From positions 62,001 through 126,000 of the forward strand of contig NZ_LT821227.1 of NCBI RefSeq assembly GCF_900169485.1: DNA of 64,000 bases, written 5' to 3'. Made by a program: the position numbers and the translations under genes. The stretch is from Phoenicibacter congonensis. Its GTDB lineage: Bacteria > Actinomycetota > Coriobacteriia > Coriobacteriales > Eggerthellaceae. This document shows, one piece after another, positions 26,582 to 48,960 of the stretch; the stretch's first letter is position 1, and every line of letters begins with the position of its first letter. The notes beneath the pieces are model-generated. The model was not told the DNA's origin and searched no databases. It worked only from the letters and a program-made list of their open reading frames with translations.

Positions 26582-26854
26582 AAGTCTGACATGTTTTTAA
26601 AATAAAAAATTTTGCATTCACTTGCAAGTCTGACCTGATATTAAAATTTTAAATTTATGTCAGACTTAAAAATTAAACACCTCAAAATCAAAGCCTGACA
26701 TGCTTTTCAAATCTCATAAACCGCTGCCGACCTCACGATTCTCTAATCAACAAACGAAGTCTGACACCAAAAATGAAATTTAAAATTTATGTCAGACTTA
26801 AAAATTCAAGAATTATGTTCAATTTAACATTGAAGTCTGACATGCATTTTAAAT
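26582..26854. repeat. Cluster of dispersed repeat copies between nagB and nagA
   Basis: This fills most of the 349-nt nagB-nagA gap, which has no gene. Five units start at 26582, 26626, 26691, 26757 and 26833. Three are single copies of AAGTCTGACATG followed by an A/T tail (the 26691 copy has AAGCCTGAC). Two (26626-26667 and 26757-26799) are inverted pairs, each a near-palindrome of 42-43 nt bounded by AAGTCTGAC and GTCAGACTT. The 26626 palindrome pairs at 17 of 21 positions. In the nagB-nagA transcript the palindromes would form long A/U stems. Confidence 0.85.
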
Positions 26855-26912
26855 AGCAGGGAATAAAAAAACCAGATAAGTTTTATTTCTGGCTTTAAAA
26901 ACTAACAATCGA

Positions 26913-27638
26913 TTAAAGCTGGCTTGCGGCCTCTTTGTCGAGGATGATTGTGCAATCAGGATGACTTTGCAAAATCGAAGCCGGAACTTGTGGTGTAACT
27001 TCTCCCTTGAAAGCCTTCTTAACAATTTCTGCCTTACCTTCACCTGTTGCAAGGAGCAAGACTTTTTTTGCTTTCATGATTGTGCCAATTCCCATTGTGT
27101 AGGCAGCCGTCGGAACCTCATCGATTGAGTTGAACAAGCGAGAATTTGCCTCAATCGTCGACCGAGTTAGCTCAACATAATGCGTAGCAACTGGGAATTC
27201 ATCGCATGGCTCATTAAAACCAATGTGTCCATTGTGGCCAAGCCCGAGAAGTTGTAAATCCACGCCGCCAGCTTCCTCAATTGCTTTTTCATAGTCTTCG
27301 CACATTTTCTCTGGATCATCGCTGTTACCAGATGGAACATGAGTGCGCACCTTGTCAATGTCGACGTTATCGAACAGATGATGATTCATGAACCAGCGAT
27401 AGCTCTGGTCGTGATCTCCATCGAGTCCTGCATACTCATCCAAATTAAAAGTCGTTATGTCTTCGAAAGATACCTCACCGCGCTTAAACTTCGCAACAAG
27501 CTCTTCATAGGTTCCAATTGGAGTAGATCCAGTGGCAAGGCCCAACACGGCAGCGGGCTTCGACTGAATTTGCTCGGCAATAATGTCGGCCGCAGCACGT
27601 GAAACGTCTTCGTAGGTTTCTTCAATAATGAACTGCAT
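26913..27638 (-). CDS. nagB: Glucosamine-6-phosphate deaminase
   Basis: 241 residues. Converts GlcN-6-P to fructose-6-P and ammonia. Motifs: GLATGSTPIGTYEEL (phosphate loop), FNLDEYAGLDGDHDQSYRWF with the catalytic Asp, and LLGLGHNGHIGFNEP. The length matches the short (NagB-II/Gram-positive) form that lacks the C-terminal allosteric segment of E. coli NagB. Ribosome site AAGGAGA. It precedes nagA in the same direction. Confidence 0.96.
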   Translation of the reverse strand: MQFIIEETYEDVSRAAADIIAEQIQSKPAAVLGLATGSTPIGTYEELVAKFKRGEVSFEDITTFNLDEYAGLDGDHDQSYRWFMNHHLFDNVDIDKVRTHVPSGNSDDPEKMCEDYEKAIEEAGGVDLQLLGLGHNGHIGFNEPCDEFPVATHYVELTRSTIEANSRLFNSIDEVPTAAYTMGIGTIMKAKKVLLLATGEGKAEIVKKAFKGEVTPQVPASILQSHPDCTIILDKEAASQL

Positions 27639-27656
27639 ACAATCTCCTTCATACTT

Positions 27657-29927
27657 TTAGGTCCAGAACAAAAATGCCTGCTTGAATCCCTCGTAACTCC
27701 ACGCATAAACATCGGAATACCATCCTGTTTCAGGAACAAAACAAAGGAGCAGACTGTATATCACACTCACTGTGACCGTGAGTATTATAACCTTGTACAA
27801 AAGATTAGAACTCAAGTGCAAAGGCACAATTGAAATGTCTTTTCCGCGCGAGAGACTTTCCTCTTCCGCCTCATCCAAAGACGAAGAGAGAAGAGCATTT
27901 TCGTTAAGAATAAACGCAATGAGAACGGCCGCCGCAAGAAACATAAATGAGAAATCAGCGTAATAGCGTTGCAAAATTCCTGCAACTTCCGCATCAAGAA
28001 TTGCAACAATAACACCACTAACAATGAGAGCCAGAACAACTCCGCTAACTGTTTTAGTTTTTCGTTGTGCATTACGAATTTTCAAGACAGGGAAAGCAAT
28101 AATTATTAGCCAAAGAATTGGAAGACAAGCAAATATTCCGCCAAAAGTTGCCTCACGAATGGTTTGTCCAAAATAGGTCGACTCAAAAGCAGTTTCTTGA
28201 ATGAACGGAAAAACACCAGTTGTAGCCGGAGTCTGGAAAAAATACATGAAAAGCGCTGGGGCAATTCGACCAGCGTTGATACCTCGTTTTGTCATGTCGT
28301 TCACAGTGAGATTGTAATTGGCGCCAAAATCCAGCGGCGAGCCAAAGCGCGCGTAGTTATAGACAAACAGACAACAAACAACAATCACATATGGCGCAAT
28401 CAAGCAAATGAATTCTTGCAATCCATCCCTGGTGGTAATCCTTTTCTCACTAATGTATGCTCGCCAAAACAAAGGAAACGCAAGGAATGAAAGAATTGCA
28501 AGTTGTGGACGACATCCAACAACAAGCGCCATGCACAAAGAACCAGCGAAGAAAACCAGCTTCTTGTGGGTTCTGTGCCTTCCCATCATCCAGAAATAAA
28601 GTCCCCAAACGGTAAATGCTATCGCACATGCAATTGGCAACGAATAAAAAGTCGGGAACTTTAAAAGATAAAGAGTGCCCGAACACACAACAATTGCAAC
28701 TTGAAGTATGAGAAAAATGCCGAGGTTAACGCGCTTAAAGTGATATTTCGCAAAACGATGAAGCAACGCTGTTATTCCCGCAAAGAAAAATATCGTCGCA
28801 ATCAAAACACCAATTGCGGTAGGGAAATCGGATCCAGTCAATAAATAAAACGGCAAATAAAACAACAGGACAGGAACAACACCAAAATAAACATAATAAT
28901 GGCCATCACGATAGGCAACATCAAATAGGTAGTCTTCCCCGCTTTCTTTTTCCGCTTCATCACGTGAAACTTTATCGTAGGGGTTGTCCATTTCTTGTAA
29001 CCATTGCGGTGGTTCTTCCAGAAGCGAAACCTGCCCTTGCGCAAAAGCGCGGGCTAGTAGTGCATATTGTTGCGAATTCTTTCCGCCGACTTGATAGGAA
29101 TTCACTATGGAGTGACCATCCCAATCGCCATAGTTATAGCTTGAAGTTGCGATACCGACTAAATTAGAGCCAAAAAACATAAAAGTCGATGCCAAGCAAA
29201 TCTCGACGAAAGTGGCACCAACAATCAAAGTTTTCGATGCGAAATCGTTTTCTCGAATCATGATCCGATAGATTGCAGACTTCGGTCTGAAGGCATAAAT
29301 AACAAGCATTGCAAACAGGACAAAACCAAAGCGCACAAAATTGAAATCAAAAGGCCTGTTCGGGTTTATCTCGATAGTGTTGAGATAAATCGGATATTCC
29401 AAATCGTGTGTGCCGTCAGAAACAACCTCAATTTTAATATTGTGCAACTGCCCAGAGCAATTGATTCGAATGTAATGTGTGTTTTCAATTGCGGTAGATA
29501 GCGAAGACAGCGGAATGCCTTCTGTATATTCAGTTGAATCAAAGTAACTCACATGAGCATCGTCGGTAAACTGGATCTTTACCCTCAAAGCTTGAGCCTT
29601 CTGAGAGTCGTCAAAATCAAGAAACAACGAGTTGACCTTCGTGTCTACGTTTTTAAACTCAATTGTGTGATTTGCACTCGTGAGAACGAATGGCGAAATT
29701 CCATCTTCGTTAGTCTTGTTGGTCCTTGTTGCAGTAATTTGGCTCGCCATGTCAATGGGCTCATTTTTTAGCGTAATAAAGTAATTGAAATTGAACACAA
29801 ACGTCTCCAACAACACTGCCGCAGGCAACAAAAGTAGCAAATTTCTGCCCAAGCACTGGAGTTTTTTCTTCCTGGGCTCGCCCCAATTTTGCCAAATATA
29901 ACGGGTGTTTTCGTGGATTGAACGCAT
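27657..29927 (-). CDS. Large multi-pass membrane protein, possible GT-C-type glycosyltransferase
   Basis: 756 residues. One N-terminal helix (about 28-50), then an outside beta-rich domain (about 60-205), then about ten further membrane helices. No certain family motif. A helical core with long outside loops and Asp/His between the early helices (SYNYGDWDGHSI) recalls polyprenyl-phosphate sugar transferases and other wall-glycan membrane proteins of Actinomycetota. It is directly upstream of nagB (18-nt gap), but that may be chance. The specific function is unknown. Confidence 0.65.
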   Translation of the reverse strand: MRSIHENTRYIWQNWGEPRKKKLQCLGRNLLLLLPAAVLLETFVFNFNYFITLKNEPIDMASQITATRTNKTNEDGISPFVLTSANHTIEFKNVDTKVNSLFLDFDDSQKAQALRVKIQFTDDAHVSYFDSTEYTEGIPLSSLSTAIENTHYIRINCSGQLHNIKIEVVSDGTHDLEYPIYLNTIEINPNRPFDFNFVRFGFVLFAMLVIYAFRPKSAIYRIMIRENDFASKTLIVGATFVEICLASTFMFFGSNLVGIATSSYNYGDWDGHSIVNSYQVGGKNSQQYALLARAFAQGQVSLLEEPPQWLQEMDNPYDKVSRDEAEKESGEDYLFDVAYRDGHYYVYFGVVPVLLFYLPFYLLTGSDFPTAIGVLIATIFFFAGITALLHRFAKYHFKRVNLGIFLILQVAIVVCSGTLYLLKFPTFYSLPIACAIAFTVWGLYFWMMGRHRTHKKLVFFAGSLCMALVVGCRPQLAILSFLAFPLFWRAYISEKRITTRDGLQEFICLIAPYVIVVCCLFVYNYARFGSPLDFGANYNLTVNDMTKRGINAGRIAPALFMYFFQTPATTGVFPFIQETAFESTYFGQTIREATFGGIFACLPILWLIIIAFPVLKIRNAQRKTKTVSGVVLALIVSGVIVAILDAEVAGILQRYYADFSFMFLAAAVLIAFILNENALLSSSLDEAEEESLSRGKDISIVPLHLSSNLLYKVIILTVTVSVIYSLLLCFVPETGWYSDVYAWSYEGFKQAFLFWT

Positions 29928-29953
29928 TGCAAAATTATAGCATGCAGTATAAT
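29927..29953 (+). promoter_or_regulatory. Promoter of hpf
   Basis: A perfect -10 TATAAT at 29948-29953 with a -35-like TTGCAA at 29927-29932 (15-nt spacing, short). The start would give a leader of about 35 nt before hpf. Confidence 0.5.
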
Positions 29954-29995
29954 GAAGGCGTTCTTAGAGGAAACTAGAGAAAGTGGGGTTATGCC

Positions 29996-30568
29996 ATGAA
30001 GTTTTCAGTTTCAGGGCGTAAAATGCCAGTCACAGATGCTCTTCAGAAGTATGCGGAAGAGAAAATCAAAGACTCCGTCGAACAACTTGGATTAGACATC
30101 ATCAACTGCGACGTAGTTTTGTACTGTGAGAAAAATCCTGCAAATCCAACGCCGGCAACCTGCGAAGTTACAGTGACATTAAAGGGACAAATTGCCCGCG
30201 TCGAAATTCGTGACATTGATATGTATGCAGCAATCGACATCGCTGCCGCAAAAATCGTTCGCCAGCTTCGCAAATATAAGACTCGCACCTATGAAAAGAG
30301 AAGAAGAGAAGCAGGTGAAGCTCCTTTGGCTGCAGCTGCCACAAGCGGAGATCTTGACATCGAAGCATTAATGAATGAGTTGACCGAAGACGACATTATT
30401 CGTCGTAAAGAGATTACCTACACAGTCTGCACCGAAGAAGAAGCACTTTCAAGAATGGACCTTCTTGGACACGACTTCTATATCTACACCGACCGTGATT
30501 CAAACGATGTTCACCTTCTTTACAGAAGACTCGACGGCGGCTATGGTCTATTGTCACCAAAAAATTAA
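29996..30568 (+). CDS. hpf: Ribosome hibernation-promoting factor, long form
   Basis: 190 residues. The N-terminal S30AE/YfiA domain (about 1-100: KFSVSGRKMPVTDALQKYAEEK) binds the 30S decoding site. After a charged linker, the C-terminal domain (about 132-190: RRKEITYTVCTEEEALSRMD, GHDFYIYTDRDSNDVHLLYR) dimerises and makes 100S ribosomes. The two-domain form is usual in Gram-positives. It stands alone on the plus strand, convergent with folC. Confidence 0.95.
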   Translation: MKFSVSGRKMPVTDALQKYAEEKIKDSVEQLGLDIINCDVVLYCEKNPANPTPATCEVTVTLKGQIARVEIRDIDMYAAIDIAAAKIVRQLRKYKTRTYEKRRREAGEAPLAAAATSGDLDIEALMNELTEDDIIRRKEITYTVCTEEEALSRMDLLGHDFYIYTDRDSNDVHLLYRRLDGGYGLLSPKN

Positions 30569-30585
30569 GGGCTAGAGAAAATAAC

Positions 30586-32253
30586 TTAACTAGCAAATTC
30601 CTTCAAATGGGCTCGAAGCTCACCGACTGAATAAAGACTCCCAAAGCAAACAATGACACTTTGGGTGTCTTTTTTTGTGGCTTCATGCACAGCGCATTTA
30701 AGCGCGGCGTCAAGTGCCCCTCTTGCATTAGAAGTTTCGTGGGTAACGCCATATTCAAAAGTCAAGGCCGACAAATCATCTGCGGGAAGTTTTCTTGGAT
30801 TGTTGGGTTCATAGACATAAAACTCGTCAATCAAATCACCAACATTTTCAAGAATGCCACGTGCGTCTTTATCTTTTAGAACTCCCATTACAGCGATGAT
30901 TTTTACATTTTTCAAACATATGTCAGACTTGTGCGTTTGATCGAAATCTGCTGTGTCGACTTTGAGGTCTGACATGTTTTGAAAATCTACATTATTCAAG
31001 TCTGACATGATTTGCAAATTCTGTTCTTGTTTACAAAAAACACGGTTTTTAAGGGCTTTTGTAACATCAAGAAGCGAATCACGAAGAGCAGCTGCTCCAT
31101 CAGGGTTATGCGCACCGTCAACAAATACAAGGCAAGGAAGCCCGCACGAAAAAAGCTCAAAACGACCTGGCCAAGTTGCATTTTCGATGCCAGCTTGAAT
31201 TTTGCTCTCATCTATGCCCAAAGCGAAGGCTGCTTCAATTGCAACTGCTGCATTTTCTGGCTGATAGGCACCAAGAAGTTGAGTGTAATAGCTTTTGTTT
31301 CTGTATAAAAAACTTCTAGTGGCATTAAACGAACAATGGAAGTAAGAGTTGCATTCACAGGATTTATTTGTTCCAGAAACAAATTGTAAATTGCAATTAT
31401 TTTCTGAGTCACACACATGCGCCAAGTTTGAGAGGCGATCTGCATCGATGCTAGAAAAAGGCTCAACCGAACTAGTTAAATAATTTCTGCGGTGCGAATG
31501 ATCAAAAACAACATCTTCACAATCACATTCAGAAAAGACAGGTTCGTTTTGTCTACAGCACATTAAAAGACCGCCCTGTCGCAAGGAGGCTTTGTCAACA
31601 TAGATTATTTCTGAGTTTGTTTTATTGGCAACTTTTTCAATTGCAAGTCTGGCTTCTTCTGTTTGTTGATCGACAACAACTCGAACACCAGGCTTAATTA
31701 TTCCCGCTTTCTCATATGCAATTTTTTCAAGAGTGTCACCAAGAATTGCTGTGTGATCCAGGCCAATTTTTGTTATTACAGAAAGCAAAGGGGTTATCAC
31801 ATTCGTAGAATCAAGACGTCCCCCAAGACCAACTTCGACCACACAAATGTCGCACATCTGTTGGAAGAAATAGACAAACGCAACTGCCGTCATCAACTCA
31901 AATTCCGTCGGATGCTCTCCAAGTTGATTCTCAACTTGGAGAGCTTTTTCTTTCACCAAAAGAGTAATTTTCGTGAGATTGTTGATATCAATATCTTCAT
32001 TGTTCACGCGGATGCGCTCTTCGAAGTGATCAATGTAGGGTGATGTGAATAAACCTGTTTTTAGGCCACCCTCTCTTAAAATTGCATCAAGATAGGCACA
32101 AACTGAACCCTTGCCATTAGTTCCTGCAACATGAACAAACTTAAGTTGGTTCTGTGGGTTCCCAAGAAGCTCAAGTAATAGTTCAATCCGAGAAAGCCCA
32201 AGCGAAACCTTTTGCCATCTTGGCTCGTTGATGTAGGCTATTGGATCAAACAT
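30586..32253 (-). CDS. folC: Folylpolyglutamate/dihydrofolate synthase with large insertions
   Basis: 555 residues, well above the usual 420-440. Adds glutamate to folate (and possibly makes dihydrofolate). The P-loop HVAGTNGKGSVCAYL (about 41-55), FTSPYIDHFEERIRVN, EVGLGGRLDSTNV and GLDHTAILGDT are intact, as is VFVDGAHNPDGA in the C-terminal domain. Two segments are extra: a Cys/Asn/Ser-rich one at about 215-325, and one at about 400-450 that contains three copies of the dispersed repeat (peptides IMSDL, NMSDL, KSDI). Both are in frame. It overlaps alr by 8 nt, so the two are coupled. The enzyme is probably functional, since all core motifs remain. Confidence 0.9.
   Translation of the reverse strand: MFDPIAYINEPRWQKVSLGLSRIELLLELLGNPQNQLKFVHVAGTNGKGSVCAYLDAILREGGLKTGLFTSPYIDHFEERIRVNNEDIDINNLTKITLLVKEKALQVENQLGEHPTEFELMTAVAFVYFFQQMCDICVVEVGLGGRLDSTNVITPLLSVITKIGLDHTAILGDTLEKIAYEKAGIIKPGVRVVVDQQTEEARLAIEKVANKTNSEIIYVDKASLRQGGLLMCCRQNEPVFSECDCEDVVFDHSHRRNYLTSSVEPFSSIDADRLSNLAHVCDSENNCNLQFVSGTNKSCECNSYFHCSFNATRSFLYRNKSYYTQLLGAYQPENAAVAIEAAFALGIDESKIQAGIENATWPGRFELFSCGLPCLVFVDGAHNPDGAAALRDSLLDVTKALKNRVFCKQEQNLQIMSDLNNVDFQNMSDLKVDTADFDQTHKSDICLKNVKIIAVMGVLKDKDARGILENVGDLIDEFYVYEPNNPRKLPADDLSALTFEYGVTHETSNARGALDAALKCAVHEATKKDTQSVIVCFGSLYSVGELRAHLKEFAS
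30907..31019. repeat. Three dispersed repeat copies inside folC
   Basis: Copies at 30907-30930 (ends GTCAGACTT), 30965-30986 (AGGTCTGACATG) and 30998-31019 (AAGTCTGACATGATTT). The last two have the same orientation and lie 33 nt apart, a multiple of three. In the FolC frame they read QNMSDL and LQIMSDL; the first, in opposite orientation, reads KSDICL. Confidence 0.85.
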
Positions 32254-33430
32254 AGATGCGGTTCAAACGCATTGCTCCAAGGTCGCAAGCCAGTTCGTAA
32301 TTAATAGTGTTGCCAGCTTCAGCCATTTCATCAAGAGACACACAATTATCTCCGTCTTCGCCAATAATCGTAACAACTTCTCCGACCATCGGATCTGATT
32401 GAGGATTAACAGCCAAGCGACGTTGTGAAACTTCAAACATGCACTGGTCCATGCAAATCGAACCAACTTGCGGATGCCTCTCCCCTCTGAAAAGAAAGTC
32501 GATTTTGCCACTTAATGCGCGATGCAAGCCATCGGCATACCCAACAGAAATCGTGCAAACTTTAGCGTAGCCGCGGCTCCTGTAATGAAGACCATAGCTC
32601 ACGCCTTCCCCAATTGGCACGCTGCGAACGTCGGTGATGTGAGCTTTCACACTCATAACGGGATTTAGTTCAATTTTCGGAATTGTTACAGGTGAAGGCT
32701 TTAGGCCATAGAGAATAATTCCAGGTCGGCACATGTCGAAATGAACACCAGGATATTTCAAAGTGGCAGCTGAGTTAGAGCAATGTACAATTCCAGGATT
32801 TACTCCAACTGCACGAATCTCATCAATTGCAGTCTTGAAACGATTTGCCTGTCTCTCGAAATCGAGCGTGTCAATTTCGTCGGCAGTGGCAAAATGCGTA
32901 AAGCATCCCTCCAAGTCTAGAGCTCGATGGAATGAAATGAGACGAGCAAACTCTGCCGCTTCGTTCCAAGACACACCAATTCTGTTCATGCCTGTGTTAA
33001 TGGCAAGATGAAATGGGGCGTGCACGCCTCGTGCGTCTGCTGCTTCGCCATACTGAATTGCGAACTCGGAATCAAAAACTGAAGGCATAATGTTAAAGTC
33101 GAGCAATGCTTCAATTGCATCGAAAGGCGGTTGAGAAAGCATGAGAATTGGTTTTGAGATTCCAGCCCTTCGAAGTTCAATGCCTTCTAGGACGGTTGCG
33201 ACACCAAAATAGTCGGTTCCGCAGCTCTCAAAAACTTTTGCACAGCGCACGGCGCCATGTCCATATGCGTCAGCTTTAACAACGCTCAGCACTTTCGTGC
33301 CAGGCTTTAGCGAGCGTTTAATTGCATAAAAATTGTTGCGCAAACGCCCAAGGTCTATCTCCACCCAGGCCCCGCGCAACGCATTTAAATCATAATCATC
33401 AAGTGATTTTGTGTATTTATTCTCGTCCAT
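32246..33430 (-). CDS. alr: Alanine racemase
   Basis: 394 residues; makes D-alanine for peptidoglycan. The PLP lysine is in VLSVVKADAYGHGAV (about 47-61), the second catalytic residue, Tyr, is in GEGVSYGLHYRS, and SVGYADGLHR and SICMDQCMFEV complete the C-terminal domain. The N-terminus (about 15 residues before the domain) starts at ATG 33428-33430. There is no ribosome site, but a TATAAT lies 6 nt upstream, so the message may be leaderless. Confidence 0.96.
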   Translation of the reverse strand: MDENKYTKSLDDYDLNALRGAWVEIDLGRLRNNFYAIKRSLKPGTKVLSVVKADAYGHGAVRCAKVFESCGTDYFGVATVLEGIELRRAGISKPILMLSQPPFDAIEALLDFNIMPSVFDSEFAIQYGEAADARGVHAPFHLAINTGMNRIGVSWNEAAEFARLISFHRALDLEGCFTHFATADEIDTLDFERQANRFKTAIDEIRAVGVNPGIVHCSNSAATLKYPGVHFDMCRPGIILYGLKPSPVTIPKIELNPVMSVKAHITDVRSVPIGEGVSYGLHYRSRGYAKVCTISVGYADGLHRALSGKIDFLFRGERHPQVGSICMDQCMFEVSQRRLAVNPQSDPMVGEVVTIIGEDGDNCVSLDEMAEAGNTINYELACDLGAMRLNRIYV

Positions 33431-33436
33431 AACCTA

Positions 33437-33442
33437 ATTATA
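33437..33442 (-). promoter_or_regulatory. -10 element for a possible leaderless alr transcript
   Basis: TATAAT on the minus strand ends 6 nt before the alr ATG, so transcription should start at or beside the initiation codon. No consensus -35 lies at 16-18 nt; GTGACA is found at 21 nt. The remaining 33443-33745 holds nothing recognisable on either strand. Confidence 0.45.
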
Positions 33443-33745
33443 ATTTCACTCCGATGGCCCAATTGTCACTAAATACAGTAGCGCGAATTATTCATGAATT
33501 GGTTACAACTAGGTAACAGTTTTTTAATGTCACATAAAAAATTCGATTATTTTTTGCCTTTACGACTTTTCTAAGAATTCTCTGTTTTAACTCGGTGATA
33601 CAGAAATTGAGAAGTGGCGAAACGACGGGGAAAATAGGCATTGCTCTTGTTTTTACATGCGAGTAAATAAATTCAAAAAAAGCCTTTTACCCAAAAAGAA
33701 TAAAGAAACACCCAAACAGTCATAAATTACGTGTTAGACAAAGAG

Positions 33746-33777
33746 AAAAGCACCCGCGCAATATCGAGGGTGCTTTT
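33746..33777 (-). terminator. Intrinsic terminator after glyA
   Basis: A 10-bp stem AAAAGCACCC / GGGTGCTTTT with a 12-nt loop, 38 nt past the glyA stop. On the minus strand the stem is followed by a broken T-run. Confidence 0.8.
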
Positions 33778-33814
33778 ATTTGTCTCTTAAATAAAGAAAC
33801 CAAAAAAGGAATAA

Positions 33815-35071: not shown

Positions 35072-35273
35072 GATTCCCTCTAGTCTTTAAACTGATTATG
35101 TTAACTGCTTAATTATACGATTAAGCCCCGCAACTTGCGACCCGACTGGGTTAATGACAAAAACGACAACGAGAAGCCGTTCAAAAGAGTATAAGTAGCG
35201 ATAGCTCATTTGAATCTTCTACATTAGGACGTGTCTGCAACCCGTGTTTAGCAAACACTGCGCCTAAAGAATT

Positions 35274-36440: not shown

Positions 36441-36442
36441 CA

Positions 36443-36724: not shown

Positions 36725-36735
36725 AAAACGCCTTT

Positions 36736-37944
36736 CTACATTGAATATCGCAAAGTCGAAGAAACAGTGTGAACTATAGAGTTTTCAATTGCCTCCTTCG
36801 TAGGTTCCTGCCCAATTCCTGGCAAATCGGGAACTTTATATCTACCATGAACAGGCTGATAGTCATAAATGCAACTCTCGCGACTCTCTTTCCCGAGGGC
36901 ACGTTGGTGATGTTCGTGGATCAAGAAGTTAGGAATAGCTGCCTCTAACTGCAAAGCTGCTGCCTTTGAAATTGGACTTCCACAAACATGTGCCTGAACA
37001 TTACAATCATAAACTTGGCCCATTTCTGCTATCTTTTTAGCTTCTGAAATTCCACCGCATGTGCAAAGATCAGGCTGTAAAACTTTGAGAGAGTGATTCT
37101 CGAAGAAATTGCGGTATCCAAAACGAGTATAAATTCGCTCCCCTGAAGCAAGCGGAATAGAAGTGTTTTCTGCAACGATCTGCATCATGTCTGAATTCAA
37201 AGGATGCACAGGTTCTTCCATATAGAAAATCCGAAGAGGCTCGAGAGCATGTGCAAGTTGAATTGCAGAAGTTGTGTCGGTGTTTGAATGAAGCTCAATG
37301 ATGATATCAATGTCATCACCGCCAGCCTCTCTCATTGCAGCAACACGATTGACCACCTCATTTAGAACCTGATTTGTGAGAGGCCCCCTGCGATTCCATT
37401 CAATGCCTGTCTTTGGGACTGCGAAAGGATCAACCTTTAAAGCATCGTAGCCATCCTCTATAATCGCGGTCGTGACTTCAGCATATTGCTTGACGTCAGA
37501 AAGTCGACCCACAGGATATTTATCACCCCAGCCATATTGCAACTGTGAGGCATAAACCCTCAAATCGTCATTTTGTTTCCCGCCCAATAACTCATAGACA
37601 GGAACGTTCAAGGCTTTACCTTTTATGTCATAAAGAGCAACATCAATGGCGCTCATTGCTGCGCTTACGACGGTTCCACCGCCCATTCCCCAAAAAGTCT
37701 CGCGAAATAACTTGTTCCAAATCATGTCAGACTTAAAAGGATCGAGCCCAATAACCACTTCTGCAAAATCGCAAACCATTCCAAATCCGCCGCGCCAACC
37801 TTTTCCATAGGCTAGACCAACTTCGCCATAACCAGAAATGCCTTCATCTGTGTTAACCCGAACAATGACAGGACTCCAGGCTCCACGAGTTGCACCAGCA
37901 TTCCCGCTTTTAATTTGCATCACATCTACACTTGTAATTTTCAT
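36736..37944 (-). CDS. Enolase-superfamily (mandelate racemase/galactonate dehydratase-like) enzyme
   Basis: 402 residues. The N-terminal capping domain, then a TIM barrel with metal ligands at IIIELHSNTD, FYMEEPV and SGERIYTR, and a His in QAHVCGSPIS. These are features of the sugar-acid dehydratase subgroup (galactonate, gluconate, mannonate types), which turn an aldonate into a 2-keto-3-deoxy acid. The start is ATG 37942-37944 with GGAGG upstream, not the longer frame to 37995. Residues about 93-99 (KSDMIWN) are encoded by a stretch identical over 16 nt to the dispersed repeat. Substrate unknown; operon context suggests an imported acid. Confidence 0.85.
   Translation of the reverse strand: MKITSVDVMQIKSGNAGATRGAWSPVIVRVNTDEGISGYGEVGLAYGKGWRGGFGMVCDFAEVVIGLDPFKSDMIWNKLFRETFWGMGGGTVVSAAMSAIDVALYDIKGKALNVPVYELLGGKQNDDLRVYASQLQYGWGDKYPVGRLSDVKQYAEVTTAIIEDGYDALKVDPFAVPKTGIEWNRRGPLTNQVLNEVVNRVAAMREAGGDDIDIIIELHSNTDTTSAIQLAHALEPLRIFYMEEPVHPLNSDMMQIVAENTSIPLASGERIYTRFGYRNFFENHSLKVLQPDLCTCGGISEAKKIAEMGQVYDCNVQAHVCGSPISKAAALQLEAAIPNFLIHEHHQRALGKESRESCIYDYQPVHGRYKVPDLPGIGQEPTKEAIENSIVHTVSSTLRYSM
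37714..37734. repeat. Match to the dispersed repeat inside the enolase-superfamily gene
   Basis: Sixteen nt, AAATCATGTCAGACTT, are identical to the repeat core; the flanking tail differs. In gene direction it reads AAG TCT GAC ATG ATT (KSDMI), the only open frame of that orientation. The protein has normal length here, so this is not an obvious insertion. Confidence 0.5.
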
Positions 37945-38019
37945 AAAAGTTAAAGCCTCCAAATGAAAGTTAAATACAAAAACAGAGGGCCGCATTTGCG
38001 ACCCTCGTTTAAAAAACCA

Positions 38020-38784: not shown

Positions 38785-38822
38785 TGCTCCTTGAAATTAA
38801 TAATTAAAGTGCGTAATTAAAA

Positions 38823-39920: not shown

Positions 39921-39947
39921 TAATCTCCCTTCCTTTCCTATAAAAGA

Positions 39948-40745: not shown

Positions 40746-40749
40746 TTAC

Positions 40750-41925: not shown

Positions 41926-42149
41926 TAAAATGCATCCCCCAACCCAAAAAAATAGATGATTTAAAACGCAGATAAACACGCGAAAAGCACAGAACAACTT
42001 AAATTGCAGAACCACAATATATCACTTAAACTGACTACTTTCAAATAATCTCGTTATTGTTATTGAGATTTAAAAAACAAGACGAAAGCAAAGAATGAGA
42101 AGTCAAGCAATTAAGAAACATAACTAGCGAATTTAAGCTATGAGAAAAT

Positions 42150-43427
42150 ATGAATATGGACAGGATGATTCTTCACATAGACCTAAATTGTTGCTACGGG
42201 CAAATTGAATGTGAAGAACACCCAGAACTTCGCGATAAACCTGTGGTTGTCGCCGGCAAAGAAGAACTTCGCCATGGAATCGTTATGGCCAAAAACCAAG
42301 TAGCGAAAGAACGAGGAATCAAAACTGCCTGCACGCTTCGCGAAGCAAGACAAATTTGTCCTGATGTGGTTGTTGTTCCACCGAACTTTGATTTATATAA
42401 ACGCGTCAGTCGAGACACTAGAAAAATCTATTACAGCTATTCTGACCAGGTTGAACCCTTTGGAATTGATGAGTGCTGGGTCGATGTAACCCACACACAC
42501 GAATGTTTAGGAATGACGCCTGAAGAAATCGCCTATGACGTAAACCGACGCGTAAAAGAAGAAATAGGTCTAACCACTTCTGTGGGGCTTTCGTGGAACA
42601 AAATTTTCGCAAAATTCGGAAGCGATTACAAAAAGCCAGATGCTGTGACCATAATCACACGTGACAACTACAAAGACATAGTTTGGAGGTCGAAAGTTCG
42701 CGATTTGCTCTATGTTGGTGCAGCCACCGAACGCAGGTTAAATAATGCTGGCATTTTTACAATCGAGCAGCTCGTTCATGCCTCCGACAAATTCCTAGCG
42801 AGCGAACTCGGGAAAATGGGGTTTGTCCTTCGAGATTTTGCGAACGGTAACGACACTTCTCCAGTAAAAACATTTAACCCCGACCATTGCGACGTTGACC
42901 GCGAGATTAAAAGTTATGGAAACGGAATAACATTTCCCCGCGATATCGATGATTTTTTGACAGCAAAAGCTGTGACGCACATGCTCGCTGAAAGCGTGGC
43001 GCAGCGGATGCGCGAAGATTGTGTGCGTGCAAAAACCGTGAGCGTCGCAATTAGGAGCAGTGAAGACCTAGGTTTCATTTCAAGACAAAAAAAGCTTGAC
43101 ATAGGAACAAACATAACAATCGAAATTTGCGACATTGCCTGGGAACTTATGCGCACCAACTGGTTTTTTCCGCAAATGCCAGCGCGTGGGCTTTATGTAA
43201 CGTGCTCAAACCTAGAATCAGATGATCTGCCTATTCAGCTGACGATTGATGACCAATACAAAAATCGCGAGAAACTAGGGCACCTCGACAAGAAAATTGA
43301 CAAACTTCGAAGCATGTATGGCAACAACTCAATAATGTGGGGCGCAAAAGCAAGCGATGTCGATACTTCAAATATGGACATAAAAGACGATAATACCGTG
43401 CATCCAATTTCATTTTTCCACGACTAA
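42150..43427 (+). CDS. Y-family DNA polymerase (DinB/Pol IV-like)
   Basis: 425 residues. Catalytic carboxylates lie in ILHIDLNCCYGQIE (about 7-20) and FGIDECWVDVT (about 103-113). VVVAGKEELRHGIVMAKN and TTSVGLSWNKIFAKFGSDYKKPDA are the nucleotide-binding and helix-hairpin regions. A little-finger domain follows. The replacement of usual FFAS by NCCYGQ in the first motif is unusual. No beta-clamp binding peptide was evident at the C-terminus. It would bypass lesions. It is a single gene with no LexA-like box noticed. Three possible ATGs lie within 6 codons; the first is given. Confidence 0.9.
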   Translation: MNMDRMILHIDLNCCYGQIECEEHPELRDKPVVVAGKEELRHGIVMAKNQVAKERGIKTACTLREARQICPDVVVVPPNFDLYKRVSRDTRKIYYSYSDQVEPFGIDECWVDVTHTHECLGMTPEEIAYDVNRRVKEEIGLTTSVGLSWNKIFAKFGSDYKKPDAVTIITRDNYKDIVWRSKVRDLLYVGAATERRLNNAGIFTIEQLVHASDKFLASELGKMGFVLRDFANGNDTSPVKTFNPDHCDVDREIKSYGNGITFPRDIDDFLTAKAVTHMLAESVAQRMREDCVRAKTVSVAIRSSEDLGFISRQKKLDIGTNITIEICDIAWELMRTNWFFPQMPARGLYVTCSNLESDDLPIQLTIDDQYKNREKLGHLDKKIDKLRSMYGNNSIMWGAKASDVDTSNMDIKDDNTVHPISFFHD

Positions 43428-43530
43428 CAAGAGTCCTAATCAAGCGATAAAGACGTAAACTTCTTTATAAATGGGAAGCTTGCTTAAAGTTTTTAAATAA
43501 ATTACTAAATGCTATTTAAATAGGTGGGGT

Positions 43531-45327
43531 ATGGTCAAGAAACAGTCATTAACTACAAGAAGTCTTTATTTTTATTGGCAAGCAACGAAAAAGCACATGG
43601 GATATTTTGTGCTTCTAATCGCTTCTACTGCAATATTTGTCGGTTGCCTCACCTATGGAAATCCCTACATCATGGGCAAGATTGTGGACCGTGTTTCACT
43701 TGGATATGTGCCACAAGATCAACTGTTTGATGTCTATGCACCCTATTTAATATCTCTCGTGCTCATAAATTTGCTTGGCCAAGCGGGATCAAAACTGCAA
43801 GATTATGCAACCTACAAGCTAAACATTTTGGTGACCTATGACCTGTCAATCACTTGTTTTGATTGCCTCTGCAACCAATCGGTCGCTTTCCATTCATCAA
43901 ACTATGGTGGCGCACTCGTATCGGCAACATCGAAATTTTTAAACGCCTATCAAGAGCTGATTCGAAACATAAATTATCCGTTCATGCCAATTTTAATGAG
44001 TGTAATTTGTACTTGCGCATTGCTAGCGCCACTAATCCCGCAATATGTCGCTATCTTGTTAGTGATTCTCTGCCTGTATGCCTTCACTTCCTACAAAATG
44101 TACAAGAGAATTCTGCATCTAAATGAAAAAGCATCGGTTGCACAAAACTCTCTGTCAGGAGAACTTAGTGATGCAGTAACAAACATATTGGCAGTCAAAA
44201 CCTGCGGAAGAGAAGATTACGAGAAGAAAATTTTTGATGAAGCTGCAGTAAACGTTCGCAATCGCGACTCGATTCGAATGAAATCGTCTCTCATTCGCGG
44301 GATAATCACCGCTGCAATTGCACTCGTGATGATGACTGTAGTTGGAATATTCATTTGTGTAGGAAACACAATGTTTAGCATTCGCCCAGGCACGCTAATA
44401 ATTATGTTTACCTACACCTATTCACTAACGCAGCAATTCAACCACCTTGCAAATGCGCTTGAACGCCAAAATAAGGCGTTCGGTGACGCATATGCGATGA
44501 CGGCAGTTCTTGACGAACCACGCCTTGTTGACGACGCGCACGATGCAAAAGACATGCACGTCAATAACGGAGAAATTGAGTTTAAAAACATTGGCTTTTC
44601 ATACACCGACGGAGGCTCAAAAACGACTGTCTTCAACAACTTTAATCTCAAAATCAATGCCGGAGAGAAAGTTGGGCTAGTTGGGGTTTCGGGCTCAGGA
44701 AAAACAACATTAACGAAACTTTTGCTGAGGCTCTCTGACATCCAAGTAGGCCAAATTCTAGTCGATGGCCAAAATGTTGCTGATGTGACACAGCAATCGT
44801 TGCGACGACAAATCGTATATGTTCCACAAGAACCACTGCTGTTCCACAGGACAATTGCCGAAAACATTTCATATGGACGTCCAAGTGCGACTGTTGAAGA
44901 AATCGAGCAAGCCGCACAAAATGCAAATGCATATGATTTCATCAAAAGCCTACCACAAGGTTTTAATACTCTAACTGGAGAGCGCGGCGTCAAACTGTCA
45001 GGAGGCCAGCGTCAACGCATCGCGATTGCTCGCGCTATGCTCATAAACGCGCCAATTCTGGTTCTAGACGAGGCCACGAGCGCGCTTGATTCCGAGAGCG
45101 AAGCGACGGTGCAAGACGCTCTCGCAAAGCTCATGAAAGGAAGAACCACAATTGTGGTAGCGCACAGGCTTTCAACAGTTGCTAACCTCGACAGAATCGT
45201 TGTCCTCAAACAAGGCGAAATAATTGAAGATGGCTCACATTCCGGCCTAATCAGGTTAAATGGAGAATATGCGCGACTTTGGAATCGTCAAACTCAAGTC
45301 AACGAAGAACTAAAACGCACAGCCTAA
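43531..45327 (+). CDS. ABC exporter, fused membrane and ATPase domains
   Basis: 598 residues. Six membrane helices (about 20-320) and an ATPase: Walker A LVGVSGSGKTTLTKL, Q-loop VPQEPLLFH, signature KLSGGQRQRIAIA, Walker B PILVLDEATSALDSES and H-loop VVAHRLSTVAN. A half-transporter of the multidrug/lipid (MsbA/ATM) class, working as a dimer. GGTGGGG before the ATG. Its last 51 nt are duplicated after the stop. Substrate unknown. Confidence 0.92.
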   Translation: MVKKQSLTTRSLYFYWQATKKHMGYFVLLIASTAIFVGCLTYGNPYIMGKIVDRVSLGYVPQDQLFDVYAPYLISLVLINLLGQAGSKLQDYATYKLNILVTYDLSITCFDCLCNQSVAFHSSNYGGALVSATSKFLNAYQELIRNINYPFMPILMSVICTCALLAPLIPQYVAILLVILCLYAFTSYKMYKRILHLNEKASVAQNSLSGELSDAVTNILAVKTCGREDYEKKIFDEAAVNVRNRDSIRMKSSLIRGIITAAIALVMMTVVGIFICVGNTMFSIRPGTLIIMFTYTYSLTQQFNHLANALERQNKAFGDAYAMTAVLDEPRLVDDAHDAKDMHVNNGEIEFKNIGFSYTDGGSKTTVFNNFNLKINAGEKVGLVGVSGSGKTTLTKLLLRLSDIQVGQILVDGQNVADVTQQSLRRQIVYVPQEPLLFHRTIAENISYGRPSATVEEIEQAAQNANAYDFIKSLPQGFNTLTGERGVKLSGGQRQRIAIARAMLINAPILVLDEATSALDSESEATVQDALAKLMKGRTTIVVAHRLSTVANLDRIVVLKQGEIIEDGSHSGLIRLNGEYARLWNRQTQVNEELKRTA

Positions 45328-45391
45328 AACTATGAGTAACTTTGGAATCGTAAAAACTCGAATCTATGAAAAGCTAATGCGCACCGCCTAA
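45277..45391 (+). repeat. Imperfect duplication of the 3' end of the ABC exporter gene
   Basis: The last 51 nt of the exporter gene (45277-45327, CTTTGGAATCGT to GCCTAA) recur 12 nt later (45340-45391, same beginning, ending CGCACCGCCTAA) with several changes in the middle. The second copy is not part of a longer reading frame. It is a decayed tandem duplication. Confidence 0.7.
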
Positions 45392-45445
45392 CAAAGCAAA
45401 CTAAAAGCTACTCTCGCATGCGTTTGTTCAGTTTAAATGCTATTG

Positions 45446-46450
45446 CTAGCAGATTGCGGAGTTCACGATGACAGCAGCTGTTCCACCGTCTAAACAAATT
45501 AAAATCGGCTCTTCTGTTGAGACGTTTGAGAGTCCAAGAGAAGGATGTTCAGAAATCTTCGCATCGTCAGACTCCCATTTCAAGCCTCGAATAAACAAAC
45601 CTTCAACGGTCGGTTCTACTTGCATTAGTGAGATTGTCGTGCCTGGCGCAACAAAATAGCCATCTTTTGTAATTTCAAGTGCTGTTTTATTTCCAGCAGA
45701 AAACTCGGCGTCAGGAGCATCAGAGACCTGTTCTCCCGTTTTTTCTGCATTGTCAGAGTTTTCTCCCTCAACGTCGTCTGCATTAACATCAGAAGATGCC
45801 ACAGTTTCTGATGTTTTTGATAACGAAGCAATCATTGCATTAACTGCGAATCCGTGTTTAGCAACAATAAAATCGGGGTCATCATCAAGCTCTGCAATGC
45901 CTGTTTTGAAAGTTCCGACGATTTCAGTTTCAGACGAAGCTTCAGAATTGTCACCTGCGTTTTCGACACTGTCGCTTGTTAATCCATCTTCGCCAATGAC
46001 AGACGAAAAGTCCTCCATGACGTCTGCCTCCCATGCTTTTCCGCCCTTTAGCATGAACACAGTCTCATCCATTCCTACGAAAATGACCTGCAAACCACGC
46101 CTGGCTGCGCTTCCGCCAATGCGAATGTTGGAAAGTGTGTGATCAAGACGACGCCCAAGTGCACCGAAAATGAAAACTCGATCATAGGAATAGGACAAAA
46201 GTCTTGTTATTGTGAGTTGGAGATCAGAGTCGTCCTTGTCTACTGGAAATTTGCAGCTGTGAATGCCTTTTGGTTCCCATCCAAGTGAATCAAAGTCTCC
46301 CAGAACAATGTCGGCACGACGGTCCATGTCAAGCAGATATTGATAGCCACCATCAACCGCCATAACATAGTCAAACATTCCCTTATCATCAAGCGCACGG
46401 AACGCCTTTTCGTTAAAATCACTTGAACAAACAATTACCGCAGTATTCAA
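45446..46450 (-). CDS. thiN: Thiamine pyrophosphokinase with large acidic insertion
   Basis: 334 residues; normal enzymes have about 210. Core motifs: VMAVDGGYQYLL (about 29-40), IVLGDFDSLGW, KDDSDLQLTI and FIFGALGRRLDHTLSNI (substrate and Mg2+ sites), and at the C-terminus GLSNVSTEEPILICLDGG (thiamine-binding lid). In between, residues about 142-255 are an added stretch rich in Ser, Glu, Asp and Ala. It converts thiamine to TPP. The start is TTG at 46448-46450 with GGAG 6 nt away. Downstream of the 91-residue gene, same direction. Confidence 0.88.
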   Translation of the reverse strand: MNTAVIVCSSDFNEKAFRALDDKGMFDYVMAVDGGYQYLLDMDRRADIVLGDFDSLGWEPKGIHSCKFPVDKDDSDLQLTITRLLSYSYDRVFIFGALGRRLDHTLSNIRIGGSAARRGLQVIFVGMDETVFMLKGGKAWEADVMEDFSSVIGEDGLTSDSVENAGDNSEASSETEIVGTFKTGIAELDDDPDFIVAKHGFAVNAMIASLSKTSETVASSDVNADDVEGENSDNAEKTGEQVSDAPDAEFSAGNKTALEITKDGYFVAPGTTISLMQVEPTVEGLFIRGLKWESDDAKISEHPSLGLSNVSTEEPILICLDGGTAAVIVNSAIC

Positions 46451-46459
46451 AATCTTCTC

Positions 46460-46735
46460 CTATAAAGCCTCTAGCCGGGAGTTGTTCCCCATTTGCACAT
46501 AGAACGCTTTCTCATCCTGCCACAAAAAATGAGGTTTACCCGAAATCATCACAGTGTAGCGATAGCCATAACCGCCGCATTTGAGCGAGGGAGCATAGCG
46601 TCTTTCAGTCACGCGATCTATGCGGAACCTTCGCCCCGAATCAAGAATTATCTCGAGTGGCGTAATCGTGCCCTCATCGCTGAAATGAGCGATGACTTCT
46701 ACATAGCATTTTCCGTTTTGATCAACTTCTCCCAT
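46460..46735 (-). CDS. Small hypothetical protein
   Basis: 91 residues, beta-rich, no membrane segment. Features are IAHFSDEGTITPLEIILDSG and YRYTVMISGKPHFLWQDEKA. The spacing of Arg/Trp/Tyr resembles small proteins of unknown function found in Gram-positives; no family is named. It starts inside the end of the TatD-like gene (37-nt overlap) and precedes thiN by 9 nt, so it is part of that operon. Confidence 0.6.
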   Translation of the reverse strand: MGEVDQNGKCYVEVIAHFSDEGTITPLEIILDSGRRFRIDRVTERRYAPSLKCGGYGYRYTVMISGKPHFLWQDEKAFYVQMGNNSRLEAL

Positions 46736-47865
46736 AACTGAATTATAGCCTCTAACTCGTCAGCGACTGCGAGCGTCTCGCCCTCTTTTCGTGGGAGATC
46801 AGTCTCAAACAGAAGATGTTCAGAGCCAATTTGGCGCGCAATTTCTGCCCCATTTTTTGTAGCGAGCATGCGGGGGTTCACAGAAAACAAACAGCCGTCT
46901 TTTTTGCATCGCTTTAAAGTTTCAAAATCGTCATTAAACCAGTGATAAATTACAATGCAATTTTCTAGACAGCCCGAACTTTTTAGAATTTCATGCGTCA
47001 ATCCGTTCGTTTTGCAAGAATGCACAGAGATGATTCGTAAATTGTTGCAAAACGCTAACGCTGAATTTACTGAGTTAGCATCTGATAACAAAACGTCTGT
47101 TGACTGGCAGGGAAGGTTTTGGGTAGTTGCACTTTGAATAGGCGATTTATGGACTGTTTCATTCTGTGGATGTGCTTTGTTAGGAGTTGCGCTCTCAAAA
47201 TTTGCTCCGTGAGCGTCTAAGTTTTGATTATGCGTGTTTTCAAAAGGTGCGCTTGCGACAGCAGAACAAACAGTTTTAAACACCTCAATCTGGCTTTCCT
47301 TCTCCCTTTCAGAAAAACGTTTAGAAAAATCAAGTCCAATTTCTCCAACAAACTGAGTTTCTTCCAAGCATTTACAAAACAAGTCAGACTTAAAATTTTG
47401 CGAGTACCACGGGTGAGCGCCAACACCAATTTTTACTTTGCTAAAACTTTTAAAATTTAAGTCTGACATGATTTTTAAATCATCTTTTGCCTGTTCAGGA
47501 GCACTGTCTTTTAAATCCAAGTCAGACTTACTTTGTAAATTTTTCCTTTGGCTCTCATGTTGCAACCAGCCACCACACAAAGCTTCACCACGGAAGTCTG
47601 ACATGATTTTTAAATTTGGTGTCTCGCAAGCAAAAGCGAAATTGTTATACAAATCGTTAAGCTCGCATTCAATGGAAGCTAATCGTTCTTTTAAAAACAA
47701 AAACTCTTCGGGAGAAATTGTGTTTGCAAAAACGTGCAGATTTGATTGTTGGAGCTCTTTAAGATAGTCGGCAAGATTAGGCACCCAAGCTAGATGCATA
47801 TGTGCATCGAAGCAATTTACACTTACACCTATGCCGTTTAGTACTATTTCTTTATTTTTGTGCAA
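46699..47865 (-). CDS. TatD-family metal-dependent hydrolase carrying repeat insertions
   Basis: 388 residues; typical TatD proteins have about 260. Metal ligands and motifs: CFDAHMHLAW (about 18-27), GVGAHPWYS, FVGEIGLDFS, ISVHS, YHWF and LLFETDLP. TatD enzymes act as DNases or deoxyribonuclease-like hydrolases. Residues about 84-166 contain four copies of the dispersed repeat, giving NLKIMSDF, SKSDLDLK, DLKIMSDL and FKSDLF. A second addition (about 195-258) is rich in Asn, Gln, His and Thr. Start is TTG with AGG 4 nt upstream. It overlaps tcdA by 14 nt. The core looks intact. Confidence 0.8.
   Translation of the reverse strand: MHKNKEIVLNGIGVSVNCFDAHMHLAWVPNLADYLKELQQSNLHVFANTISPEEFLFLKERLASIECELNDLYNNFAFACETPNLKIMSDFRGEALCGGWLQHESQRKNLQSKSDLDLKDSAPEQAKDDLKIMSDLNFKSFSKVKIGVGAHPWYSQNFKSDLFCKCLEETQFVGEIGLDFSKRFSEREKESQIEVFKTVCSAVASAPFENTHNQNLDAHGANFESATPNKAHPQNETVHKSPIQSATTQNLPCQSTDVLLSDANSVNSALAFCNNLRIISVHSCKTNGLTHEILKSSGCLENCIVIYHWFNDDFETLKRCKKDGCLFSVNPRMLATKNGAEIARQIGSEHLLFETDLPRKEGETLAVADELEAIIQLWEKLIKTENAM
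47370..47615. repeat. Four dispersed repeat copies inside the TatD-like gene
   Basis: Copies at 47370-47391, 47459-47480, 47508-47529 and 47594-47615. The second and fourth are identical over 22 nt (AAGTCTGACATGATTT plus tail) and lie 135 nt apart; the first and third are in the other orientation and 138 nt apart. Both distances are multiples of three. Confidence 0.9.
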
Positions 47866-48751
47866 TTGACCTAATCACATGTGCTGCTATTGTTATCCCC
47901 ATTATTGAAGGTATAAACGAAACGGATCCAAGAATCTTTTTCTCGACGTCGCGCGTGATTACCTGTTCAGGCTGAATCACTGTTTGCTCATCTGAATAAC
48001 AAACAGTGAAATCGGGAATGTTTCGTTTTCGTGCTTCTTTGCGCATTATTCTACACAGGCCATCGTTGCATGTCTTTGACAAACTCGAAATTTGGATGCG
48101 AGAAGGGTCGAGCTTGTTAGCAGCTCCCATCGCAGATATATATCCAAGTCTACGCACTTGTACTGTGTTTTTCCCCGATTTCTCTGTCAGAGAAACGCAA
48201 GATTTTTCATCTATGTTTTCTTTACTAGAGACATTTTCTTTACTAACTTCTAATGGCTTGGAGAGCTGATTTCCATCAGTGCTAAAGCATTGGCACCAGA
48301 CTTTGTCTCTGTCGCGAACAAAGTGTTCAGCAAGCAATAACTTGATTGAAATTGCATCAATCGCATCAATTATCCATTCTGGCTGAAAACTCTCTATAAC
48401 GTCGACCGTCGCTCCAATGTTTCCTGACAAGATTAACTCGTCGAAGGTTTTAACTGTGCATTGTGGGTTCACTTCCGCAACACAGGCCTTTGCGACATCT
48501 ACTTTTCTTTCCCCAATAGTTGAAAGAAATGCAAACTCCTGTCTGTTTATGTTAGTGACATCATATGCATCCCCATCGATAATTAGAACATTCCCAACGC
48601 CTGCGCGAACAAGCGACGACAAACAATAGGACCCAACTCCCCCAAGACCAAGCAAGCACACCTTGGAATTCTGAATTTTCGTGAATGCCTCTTCGCCAAA
48701 AACTCTGCGCGTCCGATCATGTGCGTCGCCACCTGTCTCAAATCCAGTCAA
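47852..48751 (-). CDS. tcdA: tRNA threonylcarbamoyladenosine dehydratase (ThiF/TcdA family)
   Basis: 299 residues. E1-like adenylating domain: VCLLGLGGVGSYCLSSLVRAG (ATP loop, about 31-51), IIDGDAYDVTNINRQ, and IDAIDAISIKLLL. It cyclises t6A on tRNA. The zinc-type cysteines of ThiF are absent, as in TcdA. An added segment (about 165-200, ENVSSKENIDEKSCVSLTEK) makes it longer than the usual 250. Four repeat-free in-frame residues around MGAANKLDPSRI are conserved. It overlaps the TatD-like gene. Confidence 0.85.
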   Translation of the reverse strand: MTGFETGGDAHDRTRRVFGEEAFTKIQNSKVCLLGLGGVGSYCLSSLVRAGVGNVLIIDGDAYDVTNINRQEFAFLSTIGERKVDVAKACVAEVNPQCTVKTFDELILSGNIGATVDVIESFQPEWIIDAIDAISIKLLLAEHFVRDRDKVWCQCFSTDGNQLSKPLEVSKENVSSKENIDEKSCVSLTEKSGKNTVQVRRLGYISAMGAANKLDPSRIQISSLSKTCNDGLCRIMRKEARKRNIPDFTVCYSDEQTVIQPEQVITRDVEKKILGSVSFIPSIMGITIAAHVIRSIAQK

Positions 48752-48867
48752 CTTGCCTCCAAACTTGCTGCCTGCTGTCCCAAACCGATTTGCTTCACTA
48801 CCATTCTCATCTTCAGCACAGAATGCAGATCATCAGGCTTTTTTGTTGTTTATCGATTTCCACTTTT

Positions 48868-48960
48868 ATGTCTGACATGATTTTTAAATATTTTACAAAG
48901 TAAGTCTGACTTGTTTTGTAAATATATATTCAAATGAAGTCTGACACTAGTTTTTAAAAC
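48868..48960. repeat. Three dispersed repeat copies upstream of tcdA
   Basis: Copies at 48868-48889 (ATGTCTGACATGATTT plus tail), 48902-48923 (AAGTCTGACTTG) and 48937-48960 (AAGTCTGAC). Spacings of 34 and 35 nt are not multiples of three. They fill most of the gap between yigZ and tcdA and are all in one orientation. Confidence 0.85.

Follow-up and report, generated by a model that had tools for sequence, protein, structure and literature searches.

The repeat and its clusters in the window

A sequence unit of 22 nt recurs in four clusters in a stretch of the Phoenicibacter congonensis chromosome (positions 62001-126000), which we refer to as the window and whose 64,000 nucleotides are numbered from its first letter. 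The host is a small gut bacterium with a genome of 1.448 Mb, of which we examined 364 kb (62001-426000), including the window. As set out below, we consider this unit to be probably a non-autonomous element resembling repetitive extragenic palindromic (REP) sequences, which can form inverted doublets (REPINs), and to belong to a REP-associated tyrosine transposase (RAYT). The features in the window are listed here with weight-matrix scores; copies are called length-neutral where they align to the corresponding gene of a genome from the same genus without a change in length.

26582-26854, both strands: cluster 1, in the gap between nagA and nagB; six copies, scores 23.3-29.4
26582-26603, 26626-26647, 26691-26712 and 26833-26854, + strand: copies of cluster 1
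26646-26667 and 26778-26799, - strand: copies of cluster 1
26626-26667 (42 nt) and 26757-26799 (43 nt): REPIN-like palindromes of cluster 1; both fold
30586-32253, - strand: folC, host of cluster 2; folylpolyglutamate/dihydrofolate synthase family (TIGR01499, 347.7 bits, cut-off 162.65)
30909-30930 (-), 30965-30986 (+) and 30998-31019 (+): cluster 2, in folC; scores 23.4, 25.8 and 29.8
30916-31056, - strand: added segment of folC, residues 400-446 (HMMER; edge uncertain by a few residues)
31634-31655, - strand: weak copy in folC, score 18.7 (outside the counts); length-neutral, identical to the same-genus gene at 9 of 22 bases
36736-37995: galactonate-dehydratase-like gene, host of a single copy
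37713-37734, - strand: single length-neutral copy, score 26.8; 17 of 22 bases as in the same-genus gene, no gap
46699-47865: TatD-like gene (TatD_DNase, 78.9 bits), host of cluster 3
47370-47391 (-), 47459-47480 (+), 47519-47540 (+) and 47594-47615 (+): cluster 3; scores 30.3, 31.3, 26.8 and 31.3
48868-48889 and 48902-48923, + strand: cluster 4, between genes; scores 30.1 and 30.3
48937, + strand: third, altered copy of cluster 4, with 3 mismatches to the 16-mer described below; the cluster spans 48868-48960

Half of the 16 copies in the window lie within open reading frames (ORFs), namely folC, the galactonate-dehydratase-like gene and the TatD-like gene. For the last of these we found no clear same-genus orthologue, just a weak match to a different TatD gene.

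Copy number and distribution

The unit includes a conserved A/T tail and has the consensus AAGTCTGACATGATTTTTAAAT in a weight matrix that was made from seed copies. Counted copies are those with a score of at least 20 after overlapping matches had been merged. In the 364 kb there are 116 such non-overlapping copies, and the 16 in the window agree with the sequence-only reading, which had estimated about fifteen. Counts without merging (202 copies at score 15, 75 of them in ORFs) are inflated by the near-palindromic core and are superseded by the merged ones.

A dispersed repeat of about 22 bp in four clusters, as first described from the sequence, is clearly present. The 16-mer AAGTCTGACATGATTT, allowing up to 3 mismatches, matches the window 19 times, compared with 1.33 expected and a maximum of 5 in 100 shuffles. 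Seventeen of these matches fall in the four clusters or at 37719-37734, and the two outside (23753 and 24804) are weak, with 3 mismatches each. Two copies had been noted as identical over 22 nt; these are 47459-47480 and 47594-47615.

Whole-genome and relative searches had been proposed as checks, and the outcome that would have refuted the repeat did not arise. When up to 2 mismatches are allowed, the genome contains 89 matches to the 16-mer, of which 87 fall in the interval 88,582-404,415. A reversed control pattern gives none. A slightly wider pattern matches this genome 101 times and each of 40 relatives 0-4 times; the control pattern has 0-7 matches in each relative. At a score of at least 20, we obtained no copies in codon-shuffled genes (averaged over 5 shufflings of the full set of 285 called genes), none in 67 loci (233 kb) from other relatives and none in 82 kb of the same-genus genome, where three places score 15.1, 15.5 and 19.1. 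The repeat is thus nearly restricted to one species among those searched. It is also regional in the chromosome: 85 of the 116 copies lie within 25 kb of position 349.98 kb, a span that makes up 13.7% of the searched DNA.

Neighboring copies up to 200 bp apart are mostly arranged in tandem (30 ++ and 17 -- pairs), and the remainder are inverted (14 +- and 11 -+). In nine of the +- pairs the partners share 1-3 nt, which produces near-palindromes of 41-43 nt. Four near-palindromes fold, with z values of -3.8 to -5.2; one of these four (26757-26799) is not among the nine pairs, and its left partner (26757) scores below 13 and was recognized by eye. The two near-palindromes of 42-43 nt pointed out in the sequence-only reading are those of cluster 1 (26626-26667 and 26757-26799), for which 0 and 2 of 200 shuffles, respectively, fold equally well.

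RAYT homologues and local versions of the motif

The sequence-only reading had found no tail of transposase. This holds for the window itself, and the repeat is non-autonomous, with no gene of its own; a homologue of the IS200/RAYT type is found outside. PF01797 (IS200 transposase family, Y1_Tnp) has 8 matches in the genome, each exceeding the 23-bit cut-off, and one of them lies amid the densest repeats:

Genome 349804-350154, outside the window: RAYT homologue, broken, with a frame of 116 aa

Intact paralogues have 256-273 aa, and the 349804 frame breaks off after the HUH motif. The homologue at 595058 is short (118 aa), and that at 1447327 runs off the end of the contig. All eight aligned homologues carry N-H-[IV]-H in the HUH region. 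The frames at 349804 and 595058 stop before or at the region of an A-Y-x-F-N-N-P motif that is present in the others and whose tyrosine we take to be the catalytic one. In NCBIfam, the single match of the five homologues tested is the REP-associated tyrosine transposase, NF047646. The best sequence match of one intact homologue in the PDB is TnpArep (4er8, E 0.0011).

The seven other RAYT homologues are surrounded mainly by other versions of the same core motif. The counts that follow cover the stretches examined and are plain motif matches rather than weight-matrix hits. AAGTCTGRCAT occurs 86 times, always at 62-426 kb, with no copy in 201 kb of other stretches. The version ATGGCTGKCACC has 25 copies, 24 of which are at 590-620 kb, adjoining the RAYT at 595 kb. 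TGCCTGKCAC/GCCCTGKCAC is found 22 times at 1.000-1.020 Mb (RAYT at 1.0125 Mb), 11 times at 600-620 kb and 7 times elsewhere, and GTCTGRCCCC 47 times at 1.34-1.43 Mb and once elsewhere. The ATGTCTGKCAC and GTCTGRCACC types are present both at 0.98-0.996 and at 1.34-1.448 Mb, and the RAYTs of these two regions are also related. Two RAYT-free stretches (800-820 and 1121-1141 kb) contain no copy of any motif version. In the same-genus genome, both RAYTs are located in local arrays of yet different repeats.

The other versions are closer to the usual pattern, with 26 of 301 motif copies in ORFs, 12 of these 26 in one 20-kb stretch coding for a protein of 2145 aa. In the corresponding ORF (genome 1381082-1387519), motifs of the GTCTGACCCC and GTCTGRCACC versions occur nine times in frame.

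RAYTs are usually single-copy genes. Here we observed near-identical genes in a group of three (988947, 1422365 and 1447327) and a group of two (1350733 and 1398998) with similar flanks, as whole-element duplication would give. The same-genus RAYT arrays (L089, 5021-7008; L090, 5627-5970) comprise a 29-nt repeat in 13 copies and a 48-nt repeat in 6 copies, one of them with the core TCTGACACCAATG.

Copies inside genes

Forty-nine of the 116 copies are fully contained in ORFs (17 genes), 3 are on an ORF edge and 64 are intergenic. ORFs were called with a custom hexamer script rather than a standard gene finder. With ORFs covering about 88% of the region, the repeat does avoid genes, although its in-ORF share is high for REPs. 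Host genes include folC, ksgA, murE and metG (the names murE, metG and M16C, used below, were assigned from sequence with no family search behind them). Of 75 unmerged in-ORF copies, 25 and 21 use the frames reading ..MSDL and KSD.., 16 are of the HVRL type and 13 are in the other three frames.

For 32 of the 49 copies, the host gene could be compared with the same-genus genome; the other 17 are in genes with no same-genus counterpart in the data. Eight copies fall in sequence that is absent from the counterpart, 14 align free of gaps, 6 are beside a gap and 4 are outside the alignment. All three copies of cluster 2 belong to sequence without a same-genus equivalent: folC residues 400-446 are skipped between adjacent same-genus matches, which was confirmed in the alignment, and at that place a long, separate insertion is present in one outgroup row. 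The added segment of ksgA (residues 122-171) is missing from the same-genus gene and from 22 outgroup rows, one of which has its own insertion there, and GluQRS has an added segment at residues 242-291. Three of the four unaligned copies are in a radical-SAM activase, in 76 residues as opposed to about 20 in the same-genus species. Arrays between genes can likewise have empty counterparts. The nagA-nagB gap is 349 nt long with 6 copies compared with 50 nt in the same-genus genome, and another intergenic gap is 546 nt long with 10 copies compared with 80 nt. The search for empty sites suggested in the sequence-only reading therefore turned up two such sites in the window itself, nagA-nagB and folC 400-446.

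The 14 gap-free copies are distributed over the galactonate-dehydratase-like gene in the window (1), murE (1), GluQRS (2), an M16C-type peptidase (4), metG (2) and ksgA (4). The copy in the window had been listed as a further, shorter match at 37714-37734; it is present, and since its alignment is gap-free it is not an insertion. Amino-acid identity to the same-genus proteins is 41/94 (44%) inside these copies and 308/420 (73%) in the flanking 15 codons on either side (Fisher p 8e-8). At the nucleotide level the drop is modest and not sharp (0.59 inside, 0.69 in the flanks). Third-base identity at conserved codons (19/37 inside, 126/295 in the flanks) was uninformative, and the agreement of these copies with the consensus showed no clear edge pattern.

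The length-neutral sites share 7-19 of 22 bases with the same-genus sequence, on average 12.9 compared with 5.6 at random places, and for 11 of the 14 the random P is below 0.02. The sites at 137003 (murE), 358379 (M16C) and 362750 (metG) share 7, 9 and 9 bases and are not clearly different from random. Two M16C sites already reach scores of 15.5 and 19.1 in the same-genus species. By eye, the residues encoded by the repeat at length-neutral sites often agree with conserved ones (Q, P-D, C, R).

We also considered insertion followed by decay in the other species as the source of the length-neutral sites and rejected it for ksgA 365326 and M16C 359080, where outgroups are of equal length and no lineage shows the insertion. 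An old insertion is possible near residue 232 in GluQRS and near residue 800 in M16C, where residues missing in most outgroups are present in both members of the genus. At ksgA 365664 and 365528 the outgroup lengths vary.

FolC carries another added stretch, some 86 residues long (226-311, window 31321-31578), that is absent in the same-genus genome. It contains no repeat copy at a score of at least 13, and several outgroups carry different insertions there.

Nature and spread of the repeat

We take the repeat to be a REP-like element that is non-autonomous and belongs to a transposase of the RAYT/TIRYT type (IS200-like, HUH), with a probability of roughly 0.8. The spreading element proposed from the sequence is supported as the best reading, in the form of a REP-like unit and not of a transposon with its own gene, because the repeat is regional, nearly confined to one species, present at sites that are empty in the same-genus genome and dense around a RAYT homologue. 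Simple insertion does not account for the in-gene copies, 14 of the 32 comparable ones leaving the length unchanged.

Several observations weigh against a RAYT-dependent REP-like element. A single repeat unit does not fold (z 0.88), and the consensus lacks the GTAG tag, the mark of one REP super-family. The seven intergenic gaps holding copies differ in length from their same-genus counterparts by a median of 1 nt; clear insertion is thus seen in some gaps only, and some same-genus gaps are long too. The scores of the RAYT homologues (29.6-70.7 bits, 40.1 for 349804) are below the curated NF047646 cut-off of 80. The 349804 gene is flanked by copies on its upstream side only (349459, 349512 and 349566, all +), with none downstream as far as 351500 at a score of 13, and it is broken, so that its activity cannot be demonstrated. 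Furthermore, the motif versions are in part common to several RAYT neighborhoods. It is possible that downstream copies were lost at the broken gene. The broken state itself points to a burst that has ended or to the action of another enzyme.

Movement of the repeat by a RAYT is what we infer from this setting. The enzyme may have processed or released single-stranded repeat DNA that was re-used nearby, which would lead to spread near its own gene. Copies within genes would persist if they leave the reading frame open and are tolerated by the protein. The added copies look like arrays inserted into tolerant loops. For the length-neutral ones, short repeat DNA may have been taken up in a manner akin to short-patch recombination and have replaced sequence that was partly similar. 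Selection would then keep those that leave key residues, as the coincidence of conserved and repeat-encoded residues suggests.

Such overwriting, in which short single-stranded copies take the place of partly similar 22-nt patches and leave the length as it was, would differ from insertion as a way of spreading. We put it forward tentatively, as a possibility for part of the copies. As most length-neutral sites are repeat-like in the same-genus species already, we lowered our estimate for it slightly, and stepwise change is possible as well. For many of the 14 sites, stepwise point mutation is an equally good account, and a poor one for the three that share 7-9 bases.

Stepwise change is also central to the strongest alternative, namely that the repeat is the binding motif of a chromosome-organizing or regulatory protein, confined to one region, made site by site by point mutations and kept by selection. 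Its restriction to about a fifth of the chromosome, the length-neutral copies, the similarity of the same-genus sequence at their sites and the two M16C sites with scores in the same-genus species would all be in line with such a motif. What it does not account for are the added arrays with empty counterparts, the tandem and inverted arrays including nine pairs with a fixed overlap, the different versions of the motif around other RAYTs and the three sites that would need 13-15 changes each. We therefore regard a binding motif as unlikely.

Still less probable, in our view, is a coding repeat like the Rickettsia palindromic elements that is unconnected to any RAYT and has a RAYT homologue next to it by chance. 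In-frame additions in housekeeping genes are known for those elements (PMC3733652) and the homologue at 349804 is broken, but the density of copies is highest at this gene, and the surroundings of the other homologues tell against coincidence. DNA-uptake signals enriched by transformation can likewise lie in coding frames and come about by point changes, but they are spread genome-wide whereas this repeat is regional, and chance in AT-rich DNA is excluded by the shuffles and the relatives, so that this last pair of explanations can practically be dismissed.

Comparison with known systems

The repeat resembles the REPs and REPINs of RAYTs (TnpA-REP) in its short unit, its arrays, its folding inverted doublets and its tie to RAYT homologues. 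Inverted doublets are the actual unit in REPINs (PMC3116915), and the nine overlapping pairs described above correspond to their fixed spacing. Accumulation of REPs close to RAYTs has been reported for three marine gammaproteobacteria and Thauera (PMC2817692). The missing tag, the lack of a hairpin in the single unit and the absence of inverted repeat flanks on both sides of the RAYT set our repeat apart. So does the location of 49 of 116 copies in ORFs, since typical REPs are mostly extragenic; in P. fluorescens SBW25, for instance, 14 of 1,067 16-mers overlap genes (PMC3116915).

TIRYTs are RAYT-like genes with repeats unrelated to the GTAG REPs, some of which share GGGGWSAS (PMC3733652). 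The GTCTGACCCC version, which reads GGGGTCAG on the other strand, fits this motif, while the main 22-nt version lacks it. REPs of the CGTC type are described as having no dedicated transposase.

Intragenic REPs are known from several species, and some repeat clusters code for 43-82 residues (PMC3733652). Like these and the Rickettsia palindromic elements, our repeat occurs in frame in housekeeping genes. As with the Rickettsia elements, in-frame insertions are absent in orthologues (8 of 32 comparable copies here), a likeness of insertion pattern. PMC3733652, in the sections consulted, differs from our case in that it ties no RAYT to the Rickettsia elements and describes no length-neutral copies. 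Thus, RAYT-proximal and intragenic REPs are already in print, and length-neutral overwriting is not found there; nor did we find overwriting by REPs elsewhere in the open-access literature searched.

A candidate precedent for the replacement step is short-patch substitution by heterologous DNA, in which short segments reportedly replace chromosomal sequence in patches, according to work by Harms and colleagues from 2016. The likeness lies in the patchwise replacement, and its link to the repeat is our inference. We know of no case in which this process is fed by a repeat or a transposase.

How REPs are disseminated is poorly understood (PMC8266576). With several RAYTs, different motif versions by neighborhood and a same-genus genome as empty control, this genome offers a natural test bed. 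Overwriting, if it occurs, would allow mobile DNA to enter essential genes without a frameshift and would bear on the origin of new peptide segments in conserved proteins, and its patches might pass for rapid point evolution.

The window also contains an ORF of 756 aa (27657-29927, - strand) that is 78% identical to a same-genus gene and matches nothing in NCBIfam or Pfam at E 0.001.

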